Positions 29,303 through 33,393 of a stretch of DNA of 64,000 nucleotides are shown piece by piece. The stretch is from positions 1-64,000 of the forward strand of contig NZ_MWQH01000008.1 in NCBI RefSeq assembly GCF_002210295.1. Reading direction: 5' to 3'. A program made the position numbers and the translations under genes. The notes below the pieces were generated by a model. That model saw only the letters and a program-made list of their open reading frames with translations. It ran no database searches and was not told where the DNA came from. How positions within the stretch are numbered: the stretch's first letter is position 1; every line of letters starts with the position of its first letter. The DNA comes from Fibrobacter sp. UWB5. GTDB taxonomy: Bacteria; Fibrobacterota; Fibrobacteria; Fibrobacterales; Fibrobacteraceae.

Positions 29303-29962
29303 TTATTTGAATCTTCTCGCGCCTTGGTACTTGTGGCCCCAATACTTGTCCTGCATGGGCGAAATCATCACGCCGTTCTTGGTACTTGCGTGAATGAACC
29401 GGTTTCCGTTCAAGTAAATGCCCACGTGGTCAATCTTCCAGAGGCTTCCGAAAAACACGAGGTCGCCTTCTTTGAGTCCGCCTCGGCTTACGGATTTTCC
29501 TCGGCTGTCCTTGTACATCTTGGAAGCACTGTGGTCTAGTGCGATGTTGTAATAGCCTTTGTAAACTTGCATGACAAAACCGGAGCAGTCTGTCTTTGTC
29601 TTTGTCGCCTTGCCGTACACATACTTGGCGCCCATCCATTGTCTGGCGTAATTTTCCAAGTCCCCGCGAGGGGTCGCCCTTCTGGCGGCCTTGGCGGCTT
29701 CCTTTTTGGTGATGGCCGCACGCGCCTTTTCGGCGGAGTTCATGTGCTTCGAGGAATCTTGCGAGGCGGTCGTTTGCTCTGTGGTCTGCGGCTCTTCAAC
29801 CGGTTTTTCTTGTCTAGAAGACGAGGCTGTTTCGCTCGGTGGTACGCTCTTGTAGTCTCCGATGCTTCGGTCATACCCCGTACGTACAGGGAAGGAACAT
29901 CCGAAACACCACAGGCATATGCCGGCAAGGATGAACGGTGCAATTTTAGTGAGCGAAAACAT
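29303..29962 (-). CDS. NlpC/P60-family cell-wall peptidase (probable lipoprotein)
   Basis: This 219-residue protein has an N-terminal export signal (LTKIAPFILAGICLW) ending near Cys22, which could be a lipidation site although the CFGC lipobox is imperfect. A Ser/Thr/Glu-rich linker follows, then an NlpC/P60 domain (about 100-219). The catalytic Cys is in TKTDCSGFVM, the catalytic His in DHVGIYL, and the third polar residue in RFIHAST. It probably cuts peptide stems in peptidoglycan. The start at 29962 is chosen because the export signal begins there and TACATT lies 7 bases upstream. A longer reading from 30031 has an atypical N terminus. Confidence 0.85.
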   Translation of the reverse strand: MFSLTKIAPFILAGICLWCFGCSFPVRTGYDRSIGDYKSVPPSETASSSRQEKPVEEPQTTEQTTASQDSSKHMNSAEKARAAITKKEAAKAARRATPRGDLENYARQWMGAKYVYGKATKTKTDCSGFVMQVYKGYYNIALDHSASKMYKDSRGKSVSRGGLKEGDLVFFGSLWKIDHVGIYLNGNRFIHASTKNGVMISPMQDKYWGHKYQGARRFK

Positions 29963-29969
29963 CAAGCGA

Positions 29970-29975
29970 AATGTA
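29970..29975 (-). promoter_or_regulatory. Putative -10 element for leaderless start of the NlpC gene
   Basis: TACATT on the minus strand ends 7 bases before the ATG at 29962, and no ribosome site is visible. Confidence 0.35.
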
Positions 29976-30092
29976 ACTAAATCGTGGCTATATGCATTAT
30001 AGTGTTCAATGGAATTGGTGATGTTGGGCACCTATTTTTGCGGAATGGTGAATCTGCGGACATCCTTACTGGTCTGTTTTATTCAAACAAAG

Positions 30093-30098
30093 TATATT
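30093..30098 (+). promoter_or_regulatory. Putative -10 element for leaderless start of the radical SAM operon
   Basis: TATATT lies exactly 6 bases before the ATG at 30105, with no ribosome site in between. Confidence 0.45.
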
Positions 30099-30104
30099 TA
30101 TGCC

Positions 30105-31448
30105 ATGGATTTGAAAAACTTTTATTCTCACGATACGAATGTTTACAACCTTGAAGGTTTTGTCCCGCAAATTGTCGATGCCGAATATCTCCGCAATCTC
30201 GGAGTAACGGCGCAACCTTCCGAAGCAACCCTGCAAGGGCTTATCAAGGGTTCCAAGCTCTTTATGGAACGAGTCCAGAACCGAACGGTTATTCCTGTTT
30301 CGAAGTTGACGATTGAAAATATCGATCCGGATAAGGTTGAAACGGAAATTCACAACTATACAGGCCGTTGCCCTACGCTTACCTTTGAAATCAACCCTAT
30401 TCGCGGTTGCAATGTGGGCTGCCAGTATTGCTTGGTAACCGATGGCGTTCATGAACAGCACTTGGTGGCGTATGAAAATTACCACCTGTACGTGCGCAAA
30501 CTACTGGAAGAAATGAATGGGACGCCGACACGCCCCGTGACGGAAGAAGATATTCACAAGAAGAATGTCTTGCTGCAGGATTTGGCGACGGCCATCGAAG
30601 AGGCTCCTGAACGTAAGAAAGAAATTGAATCGAAGATTGTCGAAATTAGCCGTGGCAAGAACTGGAACCATTATTACTATTTCTCGCCCAAGACGGAAGC
30701 CTTCCAGGAACCGACGGTGCAGACGGGGATTGCTCACCGCATTCTCAAAGAATTCATTGCGCACTTTGAAAAGTATCCGGATTCCAACGCCAGGCTCTTC
30801 ATTGCTTCAAAGTCCGGCCCCAAGCATTTGCTTTACGAGTACGAAGGCGAAACCATTCTGGACTTGTTTGAAAAGCTCAAGGGCAAAATGCAGTTCAACA
30901 CGAGCGTCTCGATTATGCCCAAGGAATTCCGCGACCTGCTGGAACCTTACGCCGCCCCGATTGAAGAACGCCTGCAGTCTGTCAAGCTTTGCCAGGAACG
31001 CGGCATCCAGGCGAATTCCGCGCTGATTCAGCCCATTGTGATGCCGTACCTCACCGACGAACATATCAAGGATTTTTTCGATAAGTTGCATGCGGCGGGA
31101 ATCGTCAATTACAAGCCGGAATTCTTGACAGCATGCATGGAAAACCTTGCCATGCTCGGACAATGGCTCGGACACTTCGATAAGAACCTGGAGCGCGAAC
31201 TCTACGAGATTTATATCAAGCCCGACAACGCCGACCACCGCAAACAACGCGGCCGTACCGCTCCGGAAAGGGATTTGTGCATCAAGAGCATCGAAAAGAT
31301 GATGGCGTACACGCAAAAGCTCGGCATGACGACCAGTATCTGTTTCTGGGTCCGCAAGCAATTGCGCATCCCGAACACGTTGATTCCCATCGTCAATGCC
31401 AACGGTTTCCAGTGTCTCGGTTACCAGTCTAAGCTTTTTGCCAAATAG
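30105..31448 (+). CDS. Radical SAM protein of unrecognised subfamily
   Basis: This 447-residue protein has the radical SAM 4Fe-4S signature CNVGCQYC, with Cys102, Cys106 and Cys109 in CxxxCxxC spacing. A preceding TLTFEINPIRG strand and a following barrel (LFIASKSGPKH, NTSVSIMPKE, ALIQPIVMPYL) complete a typical SAM-radical TIM barrel. I could not place it in a named subfamily; some features recall spore-photoproduct-lyase-like proteins but this is weak. It starts a three-gene operon: 8 bases separate it from the ATP-grasp-like gene, which overlaps a WbqC-family gene. The operon suggests a small-molecule, peptide or glycan modification. The ATG at 30105 is preferred over an upstream in-frame start at 30009, which would add a poor N terminus. 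Confidence 0.75.
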   Translation: MDLKNFYSHDTNVYNLEGFVPQIVDAEYLRNLGVTAQPSEATLQGLIKGSKLFMERVQNRTVIPVSKLTIENIDPDKVETEIHNYTGRCPTLTFEINPIRGCNVGCQYCLVTDGVHEQHLVAYENYHLYVRKLLEEMNGTPTRPVTEEDIHKKNVLLQDLATAIEEAPERKKEIESKIVEISRGKNWNHYYYFSPKTEAFQEPTVQTGIAHRILKEFIAHFEKYPDSNARLFIASKSGPKHLLYEYEGETILDLFEKLKGKMQFNTSVSIMPKEFRDLLEPYAAPIEERLQSVKLCQERGIQANSALIQPIVMPYLTDEHIKDFFDKLHAAGIVNYKPEFLTACMENLAMLGQWLGHFDKNLERELYEIYIKPDNADHRKQRGRTAPERDLCIKSIEKMMAYTQKLGMTTSICFWVRKQLRIPNTLIPIVNANGFQCLGYQSKLFAK

Positions 31449-31456
31449 AGGCAACC

Positions 31457-32671
31457 ATGGACAAGACGTGCTCTCAAGTTTGTCGAGAACTATACTCCGA
31501 CAGGGAAGACTATTATCACCGCTGGTACCACGAGCGGCCCATTATCATTACGCCTGAACGTACGGCCGAGATTCGCGAAATGCACCGCGTTTTGTACAAG
31601 TGCGTCGAATATATGGCGTACCATTACGCTGAATTCGTCGACAAGTACATGCCACTTTCTCCCAAAGAAATGGAAATCCTGGCTTGCCAGAACCGCTATC
31701 CGTTCAAGGCGGGCGCGTACCGGCCCGATTATCTAATTACCGAAGACGGCAGACTGAAACTGTGCGAAATCACCTCGCGCTTTTTCGCTCACGGGATTTT
31801 CATGTCGTACTATTCCGAAGCGGCGGCGGACAAGTTTGTCGCCAAGTTCCCGGGGACGCACCGCGAAAGCCGTTTTGAAGAGATGATCCGCTACATGCTC
31901 GAAATTGTCGGCGACAAGCGAAAAATCTTCGTCTTGAAAAGCTCCGACAAGACTTCTGAAATCGCGCTCTACAAGGCTTTTTACGAACGCATGGGCAAGA
32001 GCGTTACGATTTACGAGGCGAACGAAGTCGAACCGAATATCGACAACTGGAAAGGCAATTTTGTCATCAGCGCATTGAACCAGAACGATATTCTCAGTTA
32101 TTCCATGGAAACCGTCAAAGCGATGATTGATTCTGGAATGTACAACGATTTCCGGACTATCTTCTTGGCGCATGACAAGCGCTTTATGAGGTTGTGGTTT
32201 GAAGACGATTTTACCGATCGTTTTTTGACGAAAGAAGAGGCTGCGTTCATTCGCGAGCATTCCATCGAGACTTTTGTCTGCGCGGAATCGGGGGCCGCGT
32301 CTGCACTTGCCGATGCCTATGCGCACAAGGACCGCTATATTCTCAAACATTACTGCCTTGGAAAAAGCGAAAAGGTTTTTGCGGGCCCGCTGACCTCCGA
32401 AGAGGAATGGAAGAACCTTTTTGATTCTGGCGCGGTCAAGGACATGATTATGCAGCCTTTTTTGCAGCAGCGTAAATTCCATACTGTCTGGGAAGGGACT
32501 CCCTTTGACGACTATGTTTGCGGCATGATGCTCTGCGTCGATGACAGGTTTTACGATTCGGGCTTGTTCCGTACCTCTAGCTGCCCGGTGACCAATAAAG
32601 TCGACGACCGAAAGGCATGCGCTGTCGCTACGGATTGCGCAAGCCTTTATGCGCATGGAGACTTGCTGTGA
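31457..32671 (+). CDS. ATP-grasp-like protein (possible circularly permuted type)
   Basis: This 404-residue protein has no sure family assignment. The RPDYLITEDGRLKLCEITSR segment near residue 88 resembles the substrate-side region of glutathionylspermidine-synthase-type and other circularly permuted ATP-grasp proteins. Later segments YILKHYCLGKSEKVFAG (near 294) and MIMQPFLQQRKF (near 332) look like the Lys and glycine-rich nucleotide loops of ATP-grasp ligases, which join a carboxylate to an amine using ATP. Catalytic residues cannot be confirmed by eye. It lies between a radical SAM gene (8 bases away) and a WbqC-family gene (overlap of 4 bases), implying a shared pathway. Confidence 0.45.
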   Translation: MDKTCSQVCRELYSDREDYYHRWYHERPIIITPERTAEIREMHRVLYKCVEYMAYHYAEFVDKYMPLSPKEMEILACQNRYPFKAGAYRPDYLITEDGRLKLCEITSRFFAHGIFMSYYSEAAADKFVAKFPGTHRESRFEEMIRYMLEIVGDKRKIFVLKSSDKTSEIALYKAFYERMGKSVTIYEANEVEPNIDNWKGNFVISALNQNDILSYSMETVKAMIDSGMYNDFRTIFLAHDKRFMRLWFEDDFTDRFLTKEEAAFIREHSIETFVCAESGAASALADAYAHKDRYILKHYCLGKSEKVFAGPLTSEEEWKNLFDSGAVKDMIMQPFLQQRKFHTVWEGTPFDDYVCGMMLCVDDRFYDSGLFRTSSCPVTNKVDDRKACAVATDCASLYAHGDLL

Positions 32672-33360
32672 TTATTGCCGGGAACCAGCCTTACTTTATA
32701 CCCTACATTGCCTATTGGCAGTTGATGAAGGCGTGCGATTTATTCCTAATCGGCGACGATTACGCTTTTATCACGCGCGGGTGGGTGCAACGCAACAGAA
32801 TCTTGCGACAGGGAAAGCCGGCCTATTTCGGGCTAGAGATTAACGATATCAGTTGCCATCGTTTGATTAACCAAACGGAACTATTGCGGGATGATTTTGC
32901 CAGAAAGCTGAAAGAACTTTACCATTGCTACCGTTCGGCGCCTTTCTTTGAAAGGGGCTACGAATTGATGGAACGGATTTTTTCGTGCGAAGAAACGAAC
33001 CTGACGGCGTTTCTGGTGAACTCCATTGAAATCGTCCGCGAATATCTTGGAATCAAGACGAAAATGATGTTCACGTCGCAGATCGAGGGCAATTGCCGAT
33101 TCAAACGCGAGCATAGGGTTTTTGATTTTTGCGACAGGCTTGGCGCAGCGACTTATGTCAACCCGATTGGCGGACAGTCCCTGTACAAGAAAGATGAATT
33201 TGCGGAGCACGGAATCGAGTTGAAGTTTATCCATTCGCATTGCCGCGAGTACAAGCAGTTCGGGAAAAACTTTGTCCCCGGGCTTTCGATACTCGATGTC
33301 ATCATGTTCAATTCCCGCGAAGAAATTGCGCAGATGCTCGACGAATACACGACGGAATAA
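32668..33360 (+). CDS. WbqC-family protein
   Basis: This 230-residue protein matches the WbqC family by its N terminus: IIAGNQPYFIPYIAYWQL, then DLFLIGDDYAFITRGWVQRN, with the typical DD and NRI patterns. WbqC proteins occur in O-antigen and other surface-glycan clusters, often near sugar-modifying genes, but their reaction is not established to my knowledge. The GTG start overlaps the stop of the upstream ATP-grasp-like gene as GTGA, a strong sign of coupled translation. An in-frame start at 32617 would overlap the upstream gene by about 50 bases and is less likely. No glycosyltransferases are nearby; the Wzc-rmlA pair is about 5 kb away. Confidence 0.75.
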   Translation: MIIAGNQPYFIPYIAYWQLMKACDLFLIGDDYAFITRGWVQRNRILRQGKPAYFGLEINDISCHRLINQTELLRDDFARKLKELYHCYRSAPFFERGYELMERIFSCEETNLTAFLVNSIEIVREYLGIKTKMMFTSQIEGNCRFKREHRVFDFCDRLGAATYVNPIGGQSLYKKDEFAEHGIELKFIHSHCREYKQFGKNFVPGLSILDVIMFNSREEIAQMLDEYTTE

Positions 33361-33393
33361 AAAAAACGCAGGCTCAATCGAGTCTGCGTTTTT
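33361..33393. terminator. Bidirectional intrinsic terminator
   Basis: AAAAACGCAG and CTGCGTTTTT form a stem, extended by an inner CTC/GAG pairing, with A and T runs on both sides. It closes the radical SAM operon and can also end thrS transcription from the other strand. Confidence 0.85.

Follow-up and report, generated by a model that had tools for sequence, protein, structure and literature searches.

A conserved radical SAM, ATP-grasp and WbqC gene cassette of gut bacteria and its possible role in decorating surface amino sugars

Three genes of Fibrobacter sp. UWB5, coding for a radical SAM enzyme, an ATP-grasp-like protein and a WbqC family protein, lie side by side in the window (the whole stretch of 64,000 nucleotides that was analysed here) and raise the question of what they make together. 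The sequence-only reading of this locus proposed that a surface polymer carries a modified sugar, amino acid or peptide and knew of no described pathway with this set. In agreement with the latter point, no description of a radical SAM, ATP-grasp and WbqC gene set was found in the open-access literature, which is not proof of its newness.

The cassette, its slot and its linkage

The following features were delineated:

30105..31448, plus strand: radical SAM gene, 447 aa (PF04055, E 8e-10)
31457..32671, plus strand: ATP-grasp gene of the GSS/Cp1B type, predicted carboxylate-amine ligase, 404 aa (Cp1B match and AlphaFold model)
32668..33360, plus strand: WbqC gene, 230 aa, predicted BshC/class I aaRS-like (HUP) ligase (PF08889, E 9e-59)
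33362..33393, no strand: terminator-like stem-loop between the cassette 3' end and the convergent thrS (RNA fold)
29900..33360, no strand: variable slot from nlpC to thrS (comparison with cassette-free Fibrobacter genomes)

The arrangement is as first read from the letters, with all three genes on the plus strand, a gap of 8 nt between the radical SAM and ATP-grasp genes and an overlap of 4 nt between the ATP-grasp and WbqC genes. The WbqC frame is open from 32617; its start was placed at GTG 32668 because homologues favour this codon, and the GTGA overlap with the ATP-grasp gene is therefore likely. The hairpin behind the genes folds with -20.4 kcal/mol (z -8.9), and was absent from the output of a simple consensus terminator scan.

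In three cassette-free Fibrobacter genomes (L211, L212, L215) the slot is only ~0.9 kb long, its flanks are identical in gene content, and it holds an unrelated gene of ~255 aa whose product looks, by eye, like a secreted PAP2-like phosphatase. As pathway partners, the Wzc-like and RmlA genes that lie 2.5-5 kb upstream of the cassette were considered and rejected; cassette-free relatives have them at the same position, which marks them as core genes here. In the genome of the window (100% complete, 17 contigs) the cassette stands alone, with neither an aminotransferase nor a GT2 glycosyltransferase adjoining and no capsule cluster around it. A GT2 of the type found with the cassette elsewhere was not detected in this genome (best 72 bits).

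The full trio is present in 11 of 37 Fibrobacter genomes, always adjacent or nearly so, and a twelfth holds a fragmentary copy. Within the genus, the WbqC and ATP-grasp genes are confined to those genomes in an all-or-none manner. A scan of 84,980 species genomes, seeded with the ATP-grasp profile, yielded 129 loci; the analysis covered the best 80. Among these best 80 of 129, all three genes occur in every one of the 46 loci that extend 4 kb or more on both flanks, and the three loci without the full trio are all close to contig ends. As the genes are found in the same Fibrobacter genomes, adjacent to each other, and together in 46/46 well-flanked loci, their association is not due to chance. 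Gene order is shuffled while linkage is kept, as in the WbqC-radical SAM-ATP-grasp order of Lachnospiraceae, and elsewhere a PBP-like or acyltransferase-like membrane gene is inserted in the cassette. For the three proteins, distances are correlated (Mantel r 0.59-0.85). Because the collection scan had been seeded by the ATP-grasp profile, the radical SAM profile was separately run over 295 genomes from the order to which one carrier belongs. Two genomes other than the carrier matched, both with ATP-grasp, radical SAM, GT2 and DegT genes in a row and WbqC convergent. The cassette is rare, with 2 of 294 genomes in that order and none among 391 genomes of the order that includes the Lachnospiraceae carrier. 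Conserved co-occurrence, for which the sequence-only reading had proposed a search, is seen both in Fibrobacter and beyond; absence of the trio elsewhere and placement of its genes in unrelated known pathways, either of which would speak against that reading, were looked for and neither was found.

The carriers among the best 80 of 129 loci are Fibrobacter, Bacteroidales (Prevotellaceae, Bacteroidaceae, Paludibacteraceae), Bacillota including Lachnospiraceae, and one Treponema, and these loci stem mainly from herbivore-gut MAGs (rumen, abomasum, omasum, horse or other herbivores). In the radical SAM tree at least two entries into Fibrobacter are needed, with bins L083 and L091 nesting inside Bacteroidota; both are metagenome bins whose contigs could be misbinned, and the window's own clade is independent of them. 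No copy of the trio was found on plasmids (tblastn with the radical SAM protein, 1e-20). That the cassette can be transferred horizontally is part of the best reading given below.

Several further genes were observed at the cassette. A PBP_like_2 (phosphate-binding-protein-like) gene, by eye without signal peptide, lies inside or beside it at varied positions (L048:8090-8938, L056:9906-10760, L060:4890-5795, L092, L100, L101, L119). Arginase-family genes flank it in two Fibrobacter bins (L047:6857-7666, L048:5762-6700), and in two Lachnospiraceae bins an acyltransferase-3-like membrane protein and a separate ATP-grasp-like gene are encoded beside it (L068:2390-3595, L093:9180-10403).

Predicted folds and conserved residues

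The ATP-grasp protein has no Pfam family match, and the sole solved protein that it matched convincingly is Cp1B (9cjn; phmmer E 3e-8, alignment profile 2.7e-21). Its AlphaFold model (pLDDT 93.7) is a full GSS-type ATP-grasp. Comparison of the model with ATP-grasp families, as suggested in the sequence-only reading, gave VIA-align Z scores of 30.2 for Cp1B over 373 residues, 27.0 for homoglutathione synthetase and 24-27 for glutathione synthetases, so that the three-domain GSS-type fold is found at nearly full length (Z 24-30). In E-64 biosynthesis, Cp1B forms a pseudodipeptide from an amino acid and a carboxylate other than an amino acid, and its residues R139, D141 and E163 matter for function according to its authors (PMC12568646). 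These correspond to R89, D91 and E104 here, invariant in 80 sequences; the position of Cp1B N165, the fourth residue of its acyl-phosphate site, is T106, with T in 77 of the 80 sequences and G or S in the rest. The guess of an ATP-grasp ligase therefore holds at the level of the family, and the protein is a predicted carboxylate-amine ligase of the GSS/Cp1B type. With the fungal E-64 ligase it shares the fold over nearly its whole length, the R-x-D and E active-site residues and, as predicted, carboxylate-amine ligation. However, identity is ~20%, the active-site Asn is replaced by Thr, and the cassette protein is found in a bacterial glycan context with other partner genes.

The assignment of the third protein to the WbqC family was confirmed (PF08889, 199 bits against a gathering score of 21.3). 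Its model (pLDDT 93.7) was matched best in VIA-align by BshC (4wbd; Z 13.9, rmsd 3.4, 223 of 230 residues), followed by class I LysRS (Z 11.8) and then by all other structures at Z 8.1 or lower, which indicates a HUP fold in common with BshC and the class I synthetases. Foldseek with the same model gave no match below 0.001, its weak matches being mostly class I tyrosyl-tRNA synthetases. At the sequence level, PF10079, the BshC family, was absent among the Pfam matches up to E 1, an HH profile comparison with BshC gave no signal (shallow alignments, Neff ~3, 10 BshC sequences), and a PDB profile search brought no meaningful match. The likeness is thus a resemblance in predicted fold, which appears to be new for this family, and the function of WbqC remains a prediction. 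BshC, which is presumed to ligate cysteine to GlcN-malate in bacillithiol synthesis, is built of a Rossmann core with connecting peptides. Its presumed reaction, the joining of an amino acid to an amino sugar, adds to the likeness, whereas WbqC has less than half its length, no detectable sequence similarity to it and a ligase role that is predicted. According to a remark in Pfam, a relative of WbqC may act as a glycine transferase. In the open-access papers found, no activity is described for the family, and one quotes it as uncharacterised. WbqC genes have been reported in EPS and flagellar glycosylation loci and beside aminotransferases, with WbqC-DegT pairs described for B. thetaiotaomicron and for a flagellar insert of Dickeya.

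The radical SAM protein carries the CxxxCxxC motif (C102/C106/C109) and a PF04055 domain, as expected from the first reading of the gene. Together with these three cysteines, C89, C413 and C437 are invariant in 72/72 sequences, two distant ones included, and may form an auxiliary metal site or act as redox residues. The nearest named models are the spore-photoproduct-lyase-like families PA0069 and Rv2578c of NCBIfam, at 41 and 40 bits. These values are far below the curated cut-offs of 360 and 430 bits, as was the case in 22/22 cassette members, and the additional invariant cysteines further set the enzyme apart. Domain models revealed no SPASM match, and a profile search of the PDB no meaningful match.

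Neighbouring genes and alternative explanations

Outside the window's genome, the trio usually has beside it a GT2 glycosyltransferase gene and one for a DesI-like nucleotide-sugar 4-aminotransferase (DegT), sometimes within full EPS clusters. In the well-flanked loci among the best 80 of 129, a GT2 gene is near the trio in 37/46 and a DegT gene in 24/46, and neither is nearby in 9/46; a Wzx flippase was found in 10/46, an initiating sugar transferase (Bac_transf) in 5/46 and a NusG-like regulator in 5/46. A flippase, an initiating transferase or glycosyltransferases adjoin the trio in many Bacteroidota and Bacillota loci, though not in the genome of the window. In Prevotellaceae, clusters of the order NusG-PssT-radical SAM-ATP-grasp-WbqC-DegT occur, with Wzx further on. 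The linked aminotransferases are closest to DesI (dTDP-4-dehydro-6-deoxyglucose aminotransferase) in both NCBIfam and the PDB; TIGR04427 is their best family, at 244-304 bits against a cut-off of 650. The five-gene linkage points to a likely sugar donor. In Prevotellaceae, EPS clusters that include the cassette additionally contain a sugar-transfer-associated ATP-grasp gene (PF14397; L088, L094, L097, L099, L102, L121), and some a PGA_cap gene.

This context bears on the possibility that the trio makes a free small molecule, either an E-64-like pseudodipeptide or a thiol or glycoside of the bacillithiol kind, and decorates no polymer. Such a product would suit the closest relatives of the two ligases, the E-64 enzyme for the ATP-grasp protein and the bacillithiol enzyme BshC for the WbqC model, as well as the isolation of the trio in Fibrobacter. 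We nevertheless regard it as quite unlikely, given the Wzx, initiating transferase, NusG-like and GT2 genes counted above and the reported presence of WbqC in EPS and flagellar glycosylation loci. The same neighbours, the sugar aminotransferase and GT2, argue against a RiPP-like modification of a peptide or protein. Both enzyme types, radical SAM and ATP-grasp, are frequent in peptide maturation. However, within ~4 kb of the trio in 80 loci there was no small ORF (20-110 aa) with wide conservation that could encode a precursor, the radical SAM protein gave no SPASM match and the ATP-grasp fold is of the GSS type, which makes this explanation very improbable.

The main rival for the radical step arises from the DesI-like neighbours. 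The radical SAM enzyme DesII, for which a structure (8HZV) is available, uses TDP-4-amino-4,6-dideoxy-D-glucose (PMC11434129) and is a precedent for radical chemistry on this sugar. Desosamine synthesis and the cassette have in common that a radical SAM enzyme is linked with a DesI-like aminotransferase; the cassette differs in its extra ligases. Potentially, the cassette enzyme could act on the nucleotide amino sugar in a DesII-like manner, the ATP-grasp protein could aminoacylate the sugar amine directly, and WbqC could serve otherwise, e.g. in a second acylation. Yet the radical SAM profile (A4) matched no DesII in the PDB up to E 1, though that structure is published. The WbqC-DegT pairs in other glycan loci also suggest that WbqC already acts on that sugar. 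We therefore consider this scheme as a whole unlikely.

The window's genome does hold a DesI-like gene, recognized by the same profile as the linked aminotransferases, at G000:C4 away from the cassette. Genes of this type are present in 11/11 cassette genomes and 13/25 others (Fisher p 0.006, with relatives counted as independent). This gene could supply the sugar of the cassette, which is only suggestive since the relatives are not independent and the gene lies in a cluster with its own ligase. That cluster, a second surface-glycan locus (L142, 9918-19322), comprises CotH-like, Wzx, DesI-like DegT, PLP decarboxylase, PylC-like ATP-grasp, glycosyltransferase and Glf-like (UDP-galactopyranose-mutase-like) genes. 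It is possibly another amino-acid decoration route, and may use the DesI-like gene for something else.

A proposed route to an amide-decorated amino sugar

In the best reading, which is in our view just about probable, the trio is a horizontally transferable cytoplasmic cassette whose enzymes form an unusual amino-acid-derived amide and attach it, through the sugar's amine, to a nucleotide-linked amino sugar that is to be built into a surface polysaccharide or glycolipid. Starting from the observed gene identities, conserved linkage, genomic context, predicted folds and conserved ATP-grasp residues, we infer the substrates, the order of steps, the bond made by each ligase and the whole radical step as follows. 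The DesI-like aminotransferase, beside the cassette in many genomes and elsewhere in that of the window, would provide a dTDP-4-amino-4,6-dideoxy sugar. The ATP-grasp protein would activate a carboxylate as acyl phosphate and, like Cp1B in E-64 biosynthesis, ligate it with an amino acid to give an acyl-amino acid or dipeptide. WbqC, as a putative HUP-fold ligase resembling BshC, would form the bond between the sugar amine and the carboxyl group of that product, and the radical SAM protein would modify the amino acid, the amide or the sugar. Where present, GT2 would transfer the finished sugar. In known glycans, Qui4N (4-amino-4,6-dideoxyglucose) bears N-acetylglycyl or N-(3-hydroxybutyryl)-L-alanyl groups (PMC3210612), and a Cp1B-like ligase for acyl-amino acids followed by BshC-like coupling to a sugar amine would result in an acyl group of this type.

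Counting against the amide-decorated sugar are the cassette of the window's genome, which has no aminotransferase or GT2 beside it, and the nine of 46 loci with neither partner. The aminotransferases score below the DesI cut-off, WbqC resembles BshC by fold alone, and the chemistry of WbqC and of the radical SAM enzyme is predicted. The initial idea, a surface sugar that carries a modified amino acid or peptide, is supported by the context in other genomes (DesI-like, GT2, Wzx, Bac_transf and NusG-like genes) and by the Cp1B/GSS and BshC folds, but gains no support in the genome of the window, where the trio sits alone in a swapped slot without a capsule cluster.

Amide-decorated amino sugars of surface glycans are a kind already known, whereas the trio of radical SAM, GSS-type ATP-grasp and WbqC appears to be new. 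With the acylated amino-sugar pathways of O-antigens and capsules (DegT with WbqC; Qui4N), the cassette shares a DesI-like aminotransferase, WbqC, the surface-glycan context and probably the amide on an amino sugar; in contrast to them it adds the radical SAM and GSS-type ATP-grasp genes as a tight trio and is known from genes alone. As a bolder and rather doubtful extension, WbqC proteins in general might be free-standing amide ligases of the class I synthetase-like (BshC) type that transfer amino acids or acyl-amino acids to nucleotide amino sugars, and the cassette might add a substituent derived from a radical-SAM-modified amino acid to a surface glycan, passed between herbivore-gut phyla.

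WbqC is widespread in O-antigen and capsule loci, and a BshC-like fold suggests for it a specific reaction that can be tested. Should the radical SAM enzyme act on the same substituent, unusual chemistry would take place on a cell-surface sugar. The carriers are bacteria important in fibre-digesting gut communities, where variation of the coat governs encounters with phages and the host.
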